From Natronosalvus amylolyticus (GTDB taxonomy: Archaea > Halobacteriota > Halobacteria > Halobacteriales > Natrialbaceae), in assembly GCF_024298845.1 (NCBI RefSeq), contig NZ_CP101156.1:1178001-1242000 (forward strand): 64,000 nt of DNA, read 5' to 3'. Positions 5,595 through 32,572 of the stretch are shown here, piece after piece. Numbering within the stretch: the stretch's first letter is position 1; every line of letters begins with the position of its first letter. The notes under the pieces were generated by a model, which had not been told where the DNA came from, searched no databases, and worked only from the letters and a program-made list of their open reading frames with translations. Both the position numbers and the translations under genes were made by a program.

Positions 5595-6505
5595 TGTGCA
5601 TCACCGAGCAGGAGGTCGAGCAGCGCCATTCGAACGGGGACCCCGTTGTGTGCCTGTTCGAAGTACGCCGCGTGGGCCGTTTCGTCGATTTCCGGCGCGA
5701 TCTCGTCGACTCGAGGGAGCGGGTGCATCACTGTCAGGTTGTCGCTCGCTACCTCGAGAGTCTCCATATCGATCTGGTACTCGCCAGCGATCTTCTGGTA
5801 TTCGTTTTCGTCGGGGAATCGTTCGCGCTGAATGCGCGTCACGTACAGGACGTCGAGCGTCGACAGGATCTCGTCCAGATTTTCGTGTTCGCGAACCGAG
5901 GCCCCCTCCTGGTGGAGGTCGTAGACGACCTCACGAGGTAACTGGAGACTTTCGGGGCTGATGAAATGCTGGTGGGCGTCGAAGTGAGAGAGCGCGTAGG
6001 CCAGCGAGTGGACCGTCCGGCCGTACTTGAGATCGCCCATGATCCCGATCGAGAGGTCCTCGAGGCCGGCGTTCTCTCGAATCGTATAGAGGTCGAGGAG
6101 CGTCTGGGTGGGGTGATGTCCGGCCCCGTCGCCGGCATTGATCAGCGGGACGTCGACGAACTCCGCAGCCATCGTCGACGAGCCCTGTTTTGGGTGGCGA
6201 ACGACGAGGGCGTCCGCGTAGCCTTCGATCACCCGAACGGTGTCCGCGAGTGTCTCCCCCTTTTTGACACTCGAGGATTCGACAGACCCCATATCGATGA
6301 CGTTGCCCCCCAGGCGCTTCATCGCCGTCTCGAAGCTCAGTTTCGTTCGCGTGCTGGGTTCGAAAAACAGCAGTCCGAGGATGGTATCCGGATAGGAGTT
6401 GGCAACTGCGGACGGATCGGCGTCGATTTCAGCGGCCCGATCGAGGATGGTTTCGATATCCTCCCGTGACAGTTGTTTACTCGTGATGACGTTGTCGTGG
6501 CGCAT
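5591..6505 (-). CDS. pyrB: Aspartate carbamoyltransferase catalytic subunit
   Basis: 304 residues, the usual length. The carbamoyl-phosphate site [12 protein letters not shown], the [12 protein letters not shown] segment and the [10 protein letters not shown] loop are all present. It condenses carbamoyl phosphate with aspartate, the first committed step of pyrimidine synthesis. It lies upstream of pyrI in a two-gene operon with a 4-nt overlap. The N-terminus [18 protein letters not shown] matches archaeal PyrB starts. Confidence 0.98.
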
Positions 6506-13423: not shown

Positions 13424-14896
13424 CTAGTCCTGGCTTACTTCTATTTGTTGGTGTGCAATATTTAGGTACGTAATTTCTGGTGGTTGAACTGGACCTCCGA
13501 TCGCAGGGTCCAGGAATTCTAGATGACCATGGTGGCTGATTTCTGACGTACCACCGATATCAACATGCCCAACAACAACAGACCCATCTATGATGAAATT
13601 GCCACTTTCTTCAAGGGTTGAACTTCCGTTTTCACCAGCAGGTGCGTAAACGACGCCCTCAAAATACGAATCCCCACTCATTGTTAACTCAAATTCTGAA
13701 GTTCCATACACCTGAAGATGTTGAGCGTTGATTTCACCGGGTCCTGGTTTATTTCCTTGCCTATCTGGAAATGAGCCGGTGCACTCGGTTTGATCTACGC
13801 ACATCTGATCATCGATTGAGATATCTCCAGTAGTGTATATTTGCAATTCATTCTCGCCCCAGTTTGTGACACGGAATTCATTGTTTACGTTTAAACTTCC
13901 GTTCACCACCAGAACAACGTCTCCATTCTCGAGATCAACAGTAAGATCATCACCAAGATTTACTTCATCTGCGTAATACTCGCCAGCTTCGAGAGTCCCT
14001 CCAGTTAGTTCTCCTTCATTCGTGTACTCTTTTTCTGCAGTTGCTACTAATTCCCAAATTTCATTGTCAATTGGTTCAAGAGAATCATTTACTTCCACTT
14101 CGCCATCAATTCCGCCCGCCTCTCCACGCACAGTTGGTTCTTCTCGGACGTGGACAGCGTTCTCAAACGGTGTTGGACGATCGATTCGGCCGAGATCTAC
14201 TCTCACTTTTCCTTTGTCACTTTCTTCTATTGGTTCTGCAAGGACACCACGTTCCCCGATCTCGTTGATGAAATACTGTTCCCAAGCACCCCAATATCTG
14301 CTTTCTATTGTTATTATCACCTGCTCATCTTCGACGACGGAACTGTAACCCTCGCTACTGTTCATTTTCAGACTTATCGAATCTGAGTCTAACTGGCCTT
14401 CACCAACGGCCTCAACCAGTTGGAAATTGAGGGTGTTTGTTACCCCGTCATATTCGATACGTGGTCCCGAAACCATCTGTGCATTTTCGCCAGTTCCTCG
14501 AATCACTGCACCCCCCTCAAGCGCATATATTCCCCCATCATGTCCTTCGTATTCTATAGCCCCAAAGGTAATGGGTTCTTCAAATTCCTCGCTGAGATTC
14601 TCGTAATCCACTGAGATTGATCCTGCATCGTCTCGAATTATTGCACCTCCGTCGCCAAGGTCTAAATTGATCGTTTGGCTGGTATCTGATTGATAACCTT
14701 GGGTGTGCATCGACTGTTTGAGTTCAATGAAACTCTGTTCAGCACGTTCATTTTCAGCTTGTTGTTGCTGGGCTCCGATCAGGTCTAATCCCACGATAAA
14801 AATTCCAAGAGAACCAATTAAGGCAATGCCAATGAGAAGTGTAAGCCCGACAACAGGAGTGGCCCCTCTTGAATCCTCACAAATTGTAGAGCCCAT
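13424..14896 (-). CDS. Pilin-like surface protein with class III-type signal
   Basis: 490 residues from ATG 14896 (a TTG 12 bp upstream is less likely). RGATPVVGLTLLIGIALIG followed by a hydrophobic stretch is the N-terminal signal and helix of haloarchaeal type IV pilin-like proteins. After it comes AQQQQAENERAEQSFIELKQ, the continuing helix. The long extracellular part is beta-rich and acidic. It has a late segment GEYYADEVNLGDD...VLVVNGSLNVNN that resembles polymer-forming beta-helical domains. Base composition and codon use are clearly more AT-rich than neighbours, suggesting acquisition by transfer. No pilus assembly genes are nearby. Confidence 0.85.
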   Translation of the reverse strand: MGSTICEDSRGATPVVGLTLLIGIALIGSLGIFIVGLDLIGAQQQQAENERAEQSFIELKQSMHTQGYQSDTSQTINLDLGDGGAIIRDDAGSISVDYENLSEEFEEPITFGAIEYEGHDGGIYALEGGAVIRGTGENAQMVSGPRIEYDGVTNTLNFQLVEAVGEGQLDSDSISLKMNSSEGYSSVVEDEQVIITIESRYWGAWEQYFINEIGERGVLAEPIEESDKGKVRVDLGRIDRPTPFENAVHVREEPTVRGEAGGIDGEVEVNDSLEPIDNEIWELVATAEKEYTNEGELTGGTLEAGEYYADEVNLGDDLTVDLENGDVVLVVNGSLNVNNEFRVTNWGENELQIYTTGDISIDDQMCVDQTECTGSFPDRQGNKPGPGEINAQHLQVYGTSEFELTMSGDSYFEGVVYAPAGENGSSTLEESGNFIIDGSVVVGHVDIGGTSEISHHGHLEFLDPAIGGPVQPPEITYLNIAHQQIEVSQD

Positions 14897-27719: not shown

Positions 27720-27734
27720 ACTTTTATAAATATA
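27720..27734 (+). promoter_or_regulatory. TATA box of the giant surface protein gene
   Basis: ACTTTTATAAATATA ends about 20 bp before the ATG at 27755. It lies inside an AT-rich stretch quite unlike the surroundings. The spacing predicts a leaderless mRNA. Confidence 0.7.
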
Positions 27735-27754: not shown

Positions 27755-30700
27755 ATGGGTGTGGTAACCGAGGGCATATCAATTGAACAGCGAGGTGACG
27801 CACCGCTCATCGGCGTTGTCTTGCTATTTGGTATGGTATTTGTTGGGGCGGCAGTGCTCGCTGTGACGGGAATGGCTGCGCTCGAGGCACTCGAGAGCAG
27901 TTCAGCACACGAACAGGCAGCTTCGTCCGTGGACATGACTCATCACGGAATTTCGACGACGACAACGACCTACTCGGAGGAAGTCGTCCCGTGGACTGAC
28001 GCCAAGTACAGTGACGATGGGACGGTATACATCGTGTGGTACAACGAATCCGAAGCTGGCTCACTCGATCCGGATGGTGAGGCCGCTGTCCATCTCGAAT
28101 CGCTCGGTGCGATCGAATACGAAACCGGAGACAGTGTTCTCGCCTATCAGAGTGGTGGGACGTGGGAACGAAGCGGTTCGACCACCACCGTGCGATCAGC
28201 ACCGACGATGGCTGGAGACGACGGTCTCACTCTCAGTTTCGTCACCATCGATGAAGATGACGTCCGAGGTTCAGAAGCCACGGTTCGACACCAACCAACC
28301 GATGGCTTCAACGGCGCTATCGAAGAGGCAATGTCGGCTGCTCGTAGTAACGGCTATACGGATGTCGCAGTCGTCATCGAAAGCGAGTTTCACGATGGAT
28401 GGCGAAGACATCTCGAGTCGACGTTCGGTGCACAGAACGTATCGACGGACGTCGCGTCCTTTGAAGACGAAAACTACGTTGGTGGCTCGTTCGATGTCGA
28501 CGGTTCTCAGACCGTAATCGCGACGCAGACGGAGACGATGGAGCCAGTGCCGCCGTTCTTCTGGGTGAAAACGGACCGGGGGTTAGTCGATGCAAGCGGT
28601 TCTCCGACAGACACGTTTGTCAACGCTGGCGGTGACTGGATGAACTTCGAAACGACTGTCGAGAACACTGGCGACATCGATGACGAACAGGATATCCGTC
28701 TGCGAATACCCGGCGTCGAATTCAACACACCACATCACGAAGCGACAAAAACGCTTGCTGGCGGCGAGTCTGCCGACGTTACTCTCTCAGTCAATCCCGG
28801 GCAGGCCAAGGGCCTCGAGTCCGGCCAGACGTACGAATACGAGATCCTGACCGAGGACGACGAAACCGATCCACGGGGCTCGTTTTATTACACCGAATAT
28901 GAAGGCGTCGAATACCGGATTAGCCAGACGGCAGTGAGTCGATCCGGAGAGTTGATCAACGTCTCTACTGACATCGCAAACATCGGTGCAAAGAACGGAT
29001 CGAAGAACGTTACACTCACTATTAGGGGTGAAACGTCTGGTCAGGAAGTTACCAGTACAACCAGCCCCATGCCGCTTGAGTATGGATCGAACGCTACTGT
29101 TTCGTGGTCGATAAACGAAACCAACTGGCCCAATGGCGAGTATGAACTCGATATCGTTACGGGCGACGAAGGACCACAGGGTCCAAACAACCCCGACAAT
29201 GCAGATTCGTCAGCCACTTTCGAGGTAACCAATGGATTCGAACCGCAAGTTGCAGTCACCGCCGATCTAGGCGTCCCCGAAGACCAACAGGTGTCCGGAG
29301 AGACGGGCCACGTCATTCCCGATGGAGCTGATGCCTCGATCGAAGTGAGCGTAGCAAATACACATTTATTCGAACAAGAACAGCCAGTGACGCTCACCCT
29401 CATGGACGATGGGACAGTCGTCGAGCAGGTGGAAAAATCGATCACGATCGACGGTGCGAGCACGAAGCAAATTTCCCTTCCAATTGCTGATCACGCGGTC
29501 GATGCGGGCACAATCTACCAGTACGATATCGCTACCGAAGACGACTCTCTCGATCACCTGGGGTCGTTCCTGGTCGTCGAAGATGGCGACACCCCTGCGT
29601 TTTCGATTGAGGGAATCGACGTCCGCAATTCGTCTGTCAAGCCGAACGATGCTCTCCACCTCGATGTTACCCTCACGAACGAAGGCGACGCTGGGGAGCA
29701 GTTCGTCTGGCTCGAGGGCTTCCATGACGATATCGTCGCCGTCGACGACATCGATATCGATGCAGGGGAGTCCAAAACTGTGCCTATCGTGTGGGATAGC
29801 GTGGCTGCCCCTCGGTCTGGGGAGACGACGTCAGTGACGCTTCGAACCGATGGAGATAACGCGACAGCGAGCGTCGACGTTGATCCACTTTTACAGGTCA
29901 ACAGCGTGGAGTCCACCGCCGATGTTATTTCGCCCGGTGAATCGGTACAGATCGTGACGGAACTCGAGAGCGTCGCTGGCACTGCCAGCCAACAGGTCTC
30001 CCTGGAGCGTGCCGATGGAACGATTATCGACACGACTGCCGTCACTGTCGACGAAGATGAGACGAAAACCGTCACCTTCGACTACCAGACCGATGCCGAT
30101 ACGATCACAGAGCGAGTCTCCGTGACGACCGACGACGACGAACGTGACGGATTGGTCGTCGTCGAACGAGATGGCCCAATCTGTGACGCTGTCGACTACG
30201 AGGGAGCCGGGACCGAGTCCGACCCCTACCAGATTAGTACGATCGATGAACTCCAGTGTATCAACGACCACGACCTCGAGGCACACTACGAACTCGTCGC
30301 TGATATCGACGCACACGGCACAGAGTACTGGAACGATGGGAAAGGATTCGAGCCGATTGGTCCAGACGGTCACAACTATCCAAACACCTATTGGCAATCT
30401 CCTGAAGCAATTGACCACGAACCGTTCGGCGGGAACTTCGACGGAAACGGACACGTTATCGATGGGCTAAGTATTGACCGCCCCGATGAGAATTTCGTCG
30501 GCCTGTTCGGCGCAACCAGTTATACGCAGGATTTCCATCCCGTTACGGGCGATGATGTCCAACCTGGTGATGGTTCTGTGATCCAAAGTGTCAGACTGAC
30601 AAACGTGAGCGTCGTTGGGAATCAACACGTCGGTGGACTGGTCGGGCAGGCTGGGGGAACGGTTCTTGACGCTCGAAGTGAAGGCTACGTCGAAGGCCAG

Positions 30701-31786
30701 GAGCAGTTGGTCGGCGGTCTCATCGGTGATGGTGCCCACGCCGATATCGATAATCGGCTCGTTGCAGTTGGAACTGTCGTCGGTGGTGAGATCAACGCCG
30801 TTGGCAATAATCGATTGAACCACGAGGGAATTGGCGGACTTGTCGGCCGTGCCACCTGGAATACGCAGGTTTCGATGGCGTATACACACACGGATGTTAG
30901 CGGTGACGAACACGTCGGTGCTATTATCGGTACGTCTTCGTACCGCGATTCGACGTTCGAACAGATGTATACGAGTGGGACAGCGACTGCCGACAGCGCT
31001 GAAGCGGGAGCAGTCGTCGGCACGGTCCTGTCTCACGGGGACGAGTTTGCAGATAGTATCTACTGGGATACGACCGTCGAACCGGCAGCATACGGTGAGG
31101 CGGGCAACTGGTTCCGTGACATCAATATGAACCGTGTGCAGACCGAGTGGAACGGAAGAAACACTCAGGAAATGACCGGACTCGAGGTAAACCAACCCGG
31201 ACACATGGAGAACCTCGTATTCGAAGAAGACGGCGGCCCGTGGGTTGCGATACCCGATTCGTACCCACGGTTCGCCTGGGAACTCGCCGCTGAAGGAACG
31301 TTCGATGTCTCGATCGACGAGGCCCCAGAGGAAGCCACTGCCGGGGAGTTCCTCGAGGTCGAAGTGACGGTGACGAGTCGGTACGAAGACAGCGATGAAT
31401 CAGATGTGACACAGACGATCGTTCTCACTGACCCCGATGGACAAACGGTCGACACGCAGTCAGTCACGTTACCGAGCACGCTCGGAAAAGATGAAACAGA
31501 ACAGATTACACTGGTCTGGCGGACTGACGACGAAGACGTCGGAACTGGTGATCTCACCGTCCGCAGTGAGGAGAATCAGGAGACGACGACGATCGAGATC
31601 AGCCCACTCGAGTTGGGTCCTGGGCAATCCGATGGAGACGTTCCAGATATCGGGATTGGTGACGGTGGTATCGAAAACGGATCGCCACCGAATCTGGGCC
31701 CTGGTCACTCGGATTCGGGTGCAGAGAACGGATCGGTACACGATCCGAACATCGATATCAGTATCGATGGTGTGACTATCCACTAG
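27755..31786 (+). CDS. Giant pilin-signal surface protein with CARDB-like and GLUG domains
   Basis: 1343 residues from ATG 27755; a GTG 48 bp upstream overlaps the promoter. The N-terminus RGDAPLIGVVLLFGMVFVGA plus AVLAVTGMAALEAL is a pilin-like signal/helix. Several CARDB/Ig-like repeats follow (for example VRNSSVKPNDALHLDVTLTN, NTGDIDDEQDIRLRIPG). GTESDPYQISTIDELQCIND and FGGNFDGNGHVIDGLSI then mark a GLUG-type beta-helical region with IGGLVGRAT and HVGAIIGTSS repeats. A further CARDB-like domain and a low-complexity tail with repeated LGPGQSD/LGPGHSD end the protein. No C-terminal anchor is seen. It is probably an adhesin-like cell-surface or pilus-tip protein. It sits on the opposite strand between adk and DUF106. 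Confidence 0.85.
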   Translation: MGVVTEGISIEQRGDAPLIGVVLLFGMVFVGAAVLAVTGMAALEALESSSAHEQAASSVDMTHHGISTTTTTYSEEVVPWTDAKYSDDGTVYIVWYNESEAGSLDPDGEAAVHLESLGAIEYETGDSVLAYQSGGTWERSGSTTTVRSAPTMAGDDGLTLSFVTIDEDDVRGSEATVRHQPTDGFNGAIEEAMSAARSNGYTDVAVVIESEFHDGWRRHLESTFGAQNVSTDVASFEDENYVGGSFDVDGSQTVIATQTETMEPVPPFFWVKTDRGLVDASGSPTDTFVNAGGDWMNFETTVENTGDIDDEQDIRLRIPGVEFNTPHHEATKTLAGGESADVTLSVNPGQAKGLESGQTYEYEILTEDDETDPRGSFYYTEYEGVEYRISQTAVSRSGELINVSTDIANIGAKNGSKNVTLTIRGETSGQEVTSTTSPMPLEYGSNATVSWSINETNWPNGEYELDIVTGDEGPQGPNNPDNADSSATFEVTNGFEPQVAVTADLGVPEDQQVSGETGHVIPDGADASIEVSVANTHLFEQEQPVTLTLMDDGTVVEQVEKSITIDGASTKQISLPIADHAVDAGTIYQYDIATEDDSLDHLGSFLVVEDGDTPAFSIEGIDVRNSSVKPNDALHLDVTLTNEGDAGEQFVWLEGFHDDIVAVDDIDIDAGESKTVPIVWDSVAAPRSGETTSVTLRTDGDNATASVDVDPLLQVNSVESTADVISPGESVQIVTELESVAGTASQQVSLERADGTIIDTTAVTVDEDETKTVTFDYQTDADTITERVSVTTDDDERDGLVVVERDGPICDAVDYEGAGTESDPYQISTIDELQCINDHDLEAHYELVADIDAHGTEYWNDGKGFEPIGPDGHNYPNTYWQSPEAIDHEPFGGNFDGNGHVIDGLSIDRPDENFVGLFGATSYTQDFHPVTGDDVQPGDGSVIQSVRLTNVSVVGNQHVGGLVGQAGGTVLDARSEGYVEGQEQLVGGLIGDGAHADIDNRLVAVGTVVGGEINAVGNNRLNHEGIGGLVGRATWNTQVSMAYTHTDVSGDEHVGAIIGTSSYRDSTFEQMYTSGTATADSAEAGAVVGTVLSHGDEFADSIYWDTTVEPAAYGEAGNWFRDINMNRVQTEWNGRNTQEMTGLEVNQPGHMENLVFEEDGGPWVAIPDSYPRFAWELAAEGTFDVSIDEAPEEATAGEFLEVEVTVTSRYEDSDESDVTQTIVLTDPDGQTVDTQSVTLPSTLGKDETEQITLVWRTDDEDVGTGDLTVRSEENQETTTIEISPLELGPGQSDGDVPDIGIGDGGIENGSPPNLGPGHSDSGAENGSVHDPNIDISIDGVTIH

Positions 31787-31936: not shown

Positions 31937-32572
31937 CTAGCTCGTTTCTTCGACCGTTTCCTTCACGTCCTCCCACACGTCATCGGGTGGCTGCTCACCA
32001 TCGACTCGCTCGAGGCGACCGTCATCTTCGTAGTATTCGAGAACTGCTGCCGTATTCTCGGAATACACACGGAGTCGTTCACGAACGGTCTCTTCGGTGT
32101 CGTCTTCCCGCTGGATCAACCTTTCTTCGACGTCGGGGTCTTCCGGCGGGTTGTATTCGACGTGATAGATGTCGCCCGTTTCGGGGTCCATCCGTCGCCC
32201 GGTCAGTCGGTGGACGAGTTCCGCCTCACTCACGTCGAGGGCGATAACGACGTCCAGATCCGTCATTCCTTCGAGTTCTTCGACTTGCTCGAGGTTGCGT
32301 GGATAGCCATCTAAAATAAAGCCATCTGCCGAAGAGAGTGCTTCGTCGACGATTGCGTTGACGACGGCGTCTGGCACGAGTTCACCCTGATCCATGTACT
32401 CGCCGGGGGTGTCGTACTCGAGGTCGAGATGGGAGATATCCATCTCCTTGTTCGACCGGAGTGCGTCTCCGGTCGTGATGTGTTCGATATCGAAGTGGTC
32501 TGCAATTTTTGCGCTCTGGGTTCCTTTGCCGGCCCCGGGAGCCCCGAGGATGAGAATACGTGGCTGTGCCAT
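31937..32572 (-). CDS. adk: Adenylate kinase
   Basis: 211 residues. The P-loop is [17 protein letters not shown], the AMP-binding block [11 protein letters not shown] and the lid [29 protein letters not shown] is also present. The lid lacks a zinc-binding Cys cluster. It interconverts AMP, ADP and ATP. It belongs to the archaeal secY-adk-DUF106 group but here lies 12.5 kb from secY. Confidence 0.97.

Follow-up and report, generated by a model that had tools for sequence, protein, structure and literature searches.

Positions 27755–31786 (+) of the 64,000-nt stretch of Natronosalvus amylolyticus DNA analyzed here ("the window"; NZ_CP101156.1, positions 1,178,001 to 1,242,000) encode a 1343-residue protein, called the giant below, which is probably a minor-pilin-class adhesin composed of a pilin-type base, a rod of immunoglobulin-like (Ig-like) domains, and an exchangeable head. 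This reading draws on sequence comparisons and structure models. What appears to be new here is the layout of the family at two chromosomal sites, the swapping of heads, the variability between species, and a C-terminal strand motif.

The open reading frame (ORF) is intact, with an ATG at 27755, a stop codon ending at 31786, and zero internal stops. The closest named relative is Natronosalvus hydrolyticus AArc-curdl1 (G113), whose orthologue is 93% identical across all 1343 residues and opens at the same Met, backing the start codon. Nonsynonymous and synonymous divergence between the two (dN 0.036, dS 0.249) shows purifying selection on the gene, which rules out a chance ORF. After processing, the protein is predicted to have a mass of 141 kDa and an isoelectric point of 4.05. 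The precursor contains 12 N-glycosylation sequons, and C810 and C835 are its sole cysteines.

At the N-terminus, the giant matches the Pfam family DUF7289 (PF23960) with 57.4 bits against a curated cut-off of 27 (E 2e-15, profile positions 1–234 of 238), and the match takes in the pilin-type segment R13-G14↓D15-APLIGVVLLFGMV, which from R13 reads R13-G14↓D15-A-P-L-I-G-V-V-L-L-F-G-M-V. The criteria for archaeal prepilins in PMC4371748 call for G, A, or S at position −1, preceded by a charge at −2; G14 and R13 occupy these positions here, ahead of the hydrophobic domain, and R followed by G, A, or S is found at the predicted site, before a hydrophobic stretch, in 61 of 64 family members. Homologues thus keep the pilin-like segment rather than beginning after it, and the pilin-like N-terminus recognized in the original prediction is borne out. 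The sole strong hydrophobic segment starts at residue 18 (mean Kyte–Doolittle score 2.83); because the next best 20-mer scores just 0.83, the giant is predicted to lack a C-terminal anchor, also as first proposed. In the AlphaFold model of an 812-residue homologue (L055:7864-10299; 58-sequence alignment, mean predicted local distance difference test (pLDDT) score 83, but 36–63 over residues 1–50), a continuous 54-residue helix (residues 26–79) is followed by beta domains. A profile of the N-terminal region has weak matches in the PDB to two solved archaeal type IV pilins, 8gi2 (E 0.007, spanning residues 10–47) and 9myg (E 0.036), the only family-relevant ones; a whole-sequence search found no solved-structure relatives of the giant. 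Pilin_N (PF07790) has no match in the giant at E ≤ 1 and scores 21.8 bits in one homologue, under its cut-off of 25.2.

Five DUF7289 candidates are encoded in the genome, one of them under the cut-off. The best is a 246-residue protein with the N-terminal sequence ERG↓VSEVLAFILVF, whose gene directly follows those of a PilB-type ATPase, a PilC-type protein, and three small proteins that resemble pilins. Because of this position, DUF7289 is best read, from gene context, as a minor-pilin family, and it may equal the arCOG02911 minor pilins of PMC4858521; a literature search found no paper on DUF7289 itself. One clear copy of a PibD-type peptidase is encoded in the genome. The PilB-PilC-small pilins-DUF7289 locus (L147; G000:C1:3216001-3234000) also adjoins genes for two large proteins with membrane anchors (854 and 863 residues), which resemble chemoreceptors (judged by eye only).

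In the model of residues 478–1343 of the giant, Ig-like beta domains are followed by the GLUG section, which is rich in beta structure, and then by a further Ig-like domain; the final 57 residues are disordered. The proposed beta-helical GLUG region is matched by one Pfam GLUG motif (PF07581; residues 955–977, 21.9 bits against a cut-off of 20.5, E 2e-4) within a section that is beta-rich in the model. The CARDB-like repeats of the original prediction survive as an Ig-like fold, but CARDB itself (PF07705) was rejected, with no Pfam match in the giant at E ≤ 1; the homologue L054 reaches 21.8 bits, slightly below the 22.7 cut-off. Foldseek matches in the PDB were to ice-binding adhesin extenders, repeats of large adhesion proteins, and integrin and complement rods, all with low template modeling (TM) scores; they support, on modeled structure, an adhesin-like rod, without naming a ligand. 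Both cysteines lie close to where the head begins and are almost invariant family-wide, even where another domain replaces the GLUG part. On another contig (G000:C5:369228-378437), a 2562-residue open frame has GLUG-type segments 34–41% identical to the head of the giant.

Head and base have different affinities. The GLUG head is 53–73% identical to heads whose bases share only 31–39% identity with that of the giant: 73% to the head of the G118 protein and 66% to that of the G011 protein, with matching bases at 31 and 36%. The base itself is closest (43% identical) to those of GLUG-less proteins found, like the giant, beside adk and DUF106 ("site A"), and 31–39% identical to those of GLUG-bearing proteins; the G011 protein is from a second site, beside ABCE1 ("site B"). 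A tree of the N-terminal bases likewise groups the window protein with the site-A GLUG-less proteins, within a 24-row set that is all site A (support 95/86). Head and base identities thus disagree, which shows that heads have moved from one base to another and also between site A and site B; the head is an exchangeable module on a pilin-like base.

The locus is also variable as a whole. In the genomes of four other Natronosalvus species (G111, G112, G114, G117), the giant found at this position has ~31% identity, and that along just a part of the protein, while most flanking genes are 78–92% identical; the adk, DUF106, cmk, truB, and cox1 products are 80–92% identical to those of the window and cox2 64–78%. 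The comparison shows a hypervariable locus between conserved flanks, diversifying between species; such strong variation is what one would expect of a protein for adhesion or recognition. Silent differences from the N. hydrolyticus orthologue are patchy, few in residues 301–480 and 1141–1200 and many in 781–1080, which suggests possible recombination tracts.

Taken as a minor-pilin-class adhesin, the giant would be inserted by Sec and the signal recognition particle (SRP) through its N-terminal hydrophobic helix and cut by PibD at R13-G14↓D15. The pilin-type alpha-1 helix would then join a type IV pilus or remain embedded in the membrane as a pilin-type anchor; within a pilus, its bulk would place the giant most likely at or near the tip. 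The Ig-like rod would lift the GLUG head past the surface layer (S-layer) to bind a surface, a glycan, or another cell. Several points weigh against this picture. No pilus assembly genes adjoin the giant within the window; the model of residues 478–1343 was built from 13 sequences and has a pLDDT of 65, moderate only; the Foldseek matches are generic beta-sandwich rods and no specific adhesin; and support is only 89/77 for the inner 10-row clade of the base tree, in which the window protein is joined with the GLUG-less proteins nearest to it.

The strongest competing explanation, possible but in our view unlikely, keeps the pilin-like helix purely as an anchor: the giant, cleaved by PibD or not, would stay in the cytoplasmic membrane as a surface adhesin or receptor projecting through the S-layer and would never enter a filament. 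The giant is very large for a filament subunit, its gene is unlinked to those for pilus assembly, one hydrophobic helix at the N-terminus is enough to anchor it, and non-pilus surface proteins such as those of the bindosome also use class III signals (PMC2910488). However, the best member of its base family in this genome is encoded in the PilB-PilC locus, and haloarchaeal pilins are often encoded apart from assembly genes (PMC4858521). The idea in the original prediction that pilin-processed proteins are normally small needs qualifying, since large proteins with class III signals have been published: the substrate-binding proteins of the Sulfolobus bindosome (PMC2910488) and, encoded in pilus loci of archaea, large proteins described as "adhesin or minor pilin" (PMC4858521).

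Matches were found in 99 of the 125 genomes of the family. Among 58 loci examined, 24 are at site A and 34 at site B, where the neighbors are ABCE1 and a gene for a small membrane protein. Of 391 haloarchaeal genomes, 356 match the DUF7289-type N-terminal profile (344 of the 377 good ones), short members included. At site A, a homologue combining DUF7289 and DUF7305 is present in 13 of 24 loci and normally adjoins the giant; this count includes the window, where the gene has been displaced ~13 kb, to 13424–14896, into a low-GC stretch (~51%). The C-terminus of its product, TYLNIAHQQIEV..., is conserved among homologues. At two adk sites (L058 in G032 and L055 in G031), two or three giant DUF7289 proteins are encoded in tandem, and at G050:C1:1109314-1110597 a giant homologue is interrupted by stop codons (two TGA, one TAA), making it a likely pseudogene on sequence evidence.

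Site B has a different set of neighbors: TafE/TasA-like genes in 24 of the 34 loci, a CARDB gene in 23, and a SipW-like signal peptidase in 20, with DUF5305 also usual. One site-B protein is TafA above the NCBIfam cut-off; others are TafE-, TafC-, or TafF-like, below the cut-offs of these families. The giant itself has no NCBIfam match, Taf families included. TafA-, TafC-, TafE-, and TafF-type proteins presumably belong to haloarchaeal fimbriae dependent on twin-arginine translocation (Tat); a literature search on Taf fimbriae found no primary archaeal paper. Three of 22 genomes checked (G011, G016, G097) have giants but no TafE match at E ≤ 1e-5, and the genome of the window has a TafE/CARDB/ABCE1 cluster without a giant, an empty site B (L107; G000:C1:2547001-2567000), so the link is one of position, perhaps of regulation, and is not obligate; an obligate Taf/TasA partner was rejected on the first of these grounds.

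The C-terminus has a signature of its own. The LGPGQSD/LGPGHSD repeat of the original prediction is real and lies within a Gly/Ser/Asp/Pro-rich linker; in 35 of the 64 members of the family, similar motifs occur no more than 60 residues from the end. After this variable Gly/Ser/Asp linker, a tail motif [IVLF]x[IVLF]..[DGN]x[IVL]x[IVLA] is found at the extreme C-terminus of 52 of 64 members, compared with 4 of 783 control ORFs, and a stricter version in 26 of 64 compared with none. One of the four control matches (L088:6193, TGDTGVDVDADHIVIG) resembles the split-off end of a giant. In that genome (G065), the giant is only 664 residues long and a separate 362-residue ORF at 6193 ends in the family tail, an arrangement that suggests a split giant gene. 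In the full-length homologue model the tail forms a strand of nine residues, and in the model of residues 478–1343, which lacks the base, it is disordered; as a hypothesis, it could have a docking or donor-strand role.

These two sets of observations bear on a second alternative, that the giant serves Tat-type TafA/TasA-like fimbriae as an accessory component, either anchor, tip, or cap, and docks by strand complementation through its C-terminal strand. The frequency of TafE/TasA-like, CARDB, and SipW-like genes at site B and the strong enrichment of a terminal motif that forms a strand in the full-length model but not in the base-less one both speak for it. It is nonetheless improbable, given the three genomes with giants and no TafE match, the distance of site-A giants from Taf genes, the site-B cluster without a giant in the same genome, and TafE matches that are all under the curated cut-off. 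Least probable, to the point of being very doubtful, is an ordinary Sec-secreted or signal-anchored Ig/GLUG surface protein whose N-terminus is merely pilin-like in look: the residues past the hydrophobic segment (GMAAL) are compatible by eye with a type I signal peptidase site, but the site pattern precedes rather than follows the hydrophobic stretch in 61 of 64 relatives, the helix of the homologue model is continuous where a signal peptidase I cut would fall, and the DUF7289 match takes in the pilin-like segment.

The gene is flanked by adk (31937–32572, −) and by the DUF106-cmk-truB genes (27578–24808, −), both antisense to it. Of the AT-rich leaderless promoter originally proposed for it, the AT-rich element is present: the TATA-like TTTTATAAATATA starts 33 nt upstream of the ATG, and part of it is shared with N. 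hydrolyticus, the stretch TAATCAATACTTTTATA being common to both. The leaderless start is what we infer from its position, which is compatible with one. Coordinates of all features are collected in Table 1.

Table 1. Features of the giant and related elements, in window coordinates.
Feature	Position	Strand	Basis
AT-rich TATA-like element TTTTATAAATATA, putative leaderless promoter	27722..27734	+	Sequence; starts 33 nt upstream of ATG; function inferred
Giant DUF7289 pilin-signal protein, 1343 aa	27755..31786	+	ORF, Pfam, homologues, purifying selection vs. G113
Predicted class III (prepilin) leader, residues 1–14, predicted cleavage R13-G14↓D15	27755..27796	+	R[GAS] in 61/64 relatives; PMC4371748 criteria
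DUF7289 domain (pilin-like base), residues 13–260	27791..28534	+	Pfam PF23960
Predicted pilin alpha-1, ~residues 15–66, hydrophobic half then amphipathic half	27797..27952	+	Homologue model; weak 8gi2 profile match
About four to five Ig-like beta domains (stalk), ~residues 261–805	28535..30169	+	Models, Foldseek; boundaries approximate
GLUG beta-rich head, ~residues 806–1180, holding C810 and C835	30170..31294	+	Pfam Glug, alignment, model
C-terminal Ig-like domain, ~residues 1181–1285	31295..31609	+	Model, alignment
Gly/Ser/Asp/Pro-rich linker with LGPGQSD and LGPGHSD	31610..31741	+	Sequence; disordered in model
Conserved C-terminal strand tail, PNIDISIDGVTIH-COOH region	31742..31783	+	Tail motif enrichment in family
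Second DUF7289 pilin-like protein, 490 aa, DUF7289 + DUF7305	13424..14896	−	Pfam

Archaeal pilus loci have predicted adhesins, and the DUF7289 giants add a concrete case among large class III proteins, at two fixed and easily located loci, with strong variation between close species and a sharp C-terminal signature; DUF7289 is given a likely role in the minor-pilin class. A more ambitious proposal, tentative and rather unlikely as a whole, is a variable pilus-tip or surface-recognition system in which a pilin base carries heads swapped by recombination between adk and ABCE1 cassettes and a tail that completes or joins another subunit by strand complementation. The family could account for variation among haloarchaea in attachment or recognition, to which viruses exploiting surface structures may contribute selective pressure.

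Several known systems share features with the giant. The family resembles PilA adhesion pilins (Haloferax; Natrinema PilA2, PDB 8gi2) in that its consensus, RGxSPxVGxVLL, is similar to their N-terminus, but PilA is ~165 residues or less in the solved case and no common globular domain was detected. The PilY-like (DUF2341) proteins put forward as pilus-tip adhesins of archaea (PMC4858521) are likewise large and have a proposed tip role, whereas DUF2341 is absent from the Pfam matches of the giant, and here it is the adhesin itself that bears the pilin signal. The genes of TasA/TafA donor-strand fimbriae (NCBIfam TafA, TafC, TafE; TasA PMC9674648) co-locate with site-B giants, and the tail of the giant is reminiscent of donor strands; however, it has no TasA/TafA domain, and giants persist without TafE matches. 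The Sulfolobus bindosome proteins (PMC2910488) also have large non-pilin domains after a class III signal peptide, but are sugar-binding proteins of transporters, while the giant has Ig and GLUG domains and no adjoining transporter genes. Type IV minor pilins of the DUF7289 kind in archaea, which probably correspond to the arCOG02911-like ones of PMC4858521, share the class III site, hydrophobic alpha-1, and beta-rich domain and include the 246-residue member in the PilB-PilC locus of this genome. Compared with these, the giant is unlinked to pilB/pilC and five times larger, adding an Ig rod, a GLUG head, a linker, and a terminal strand.

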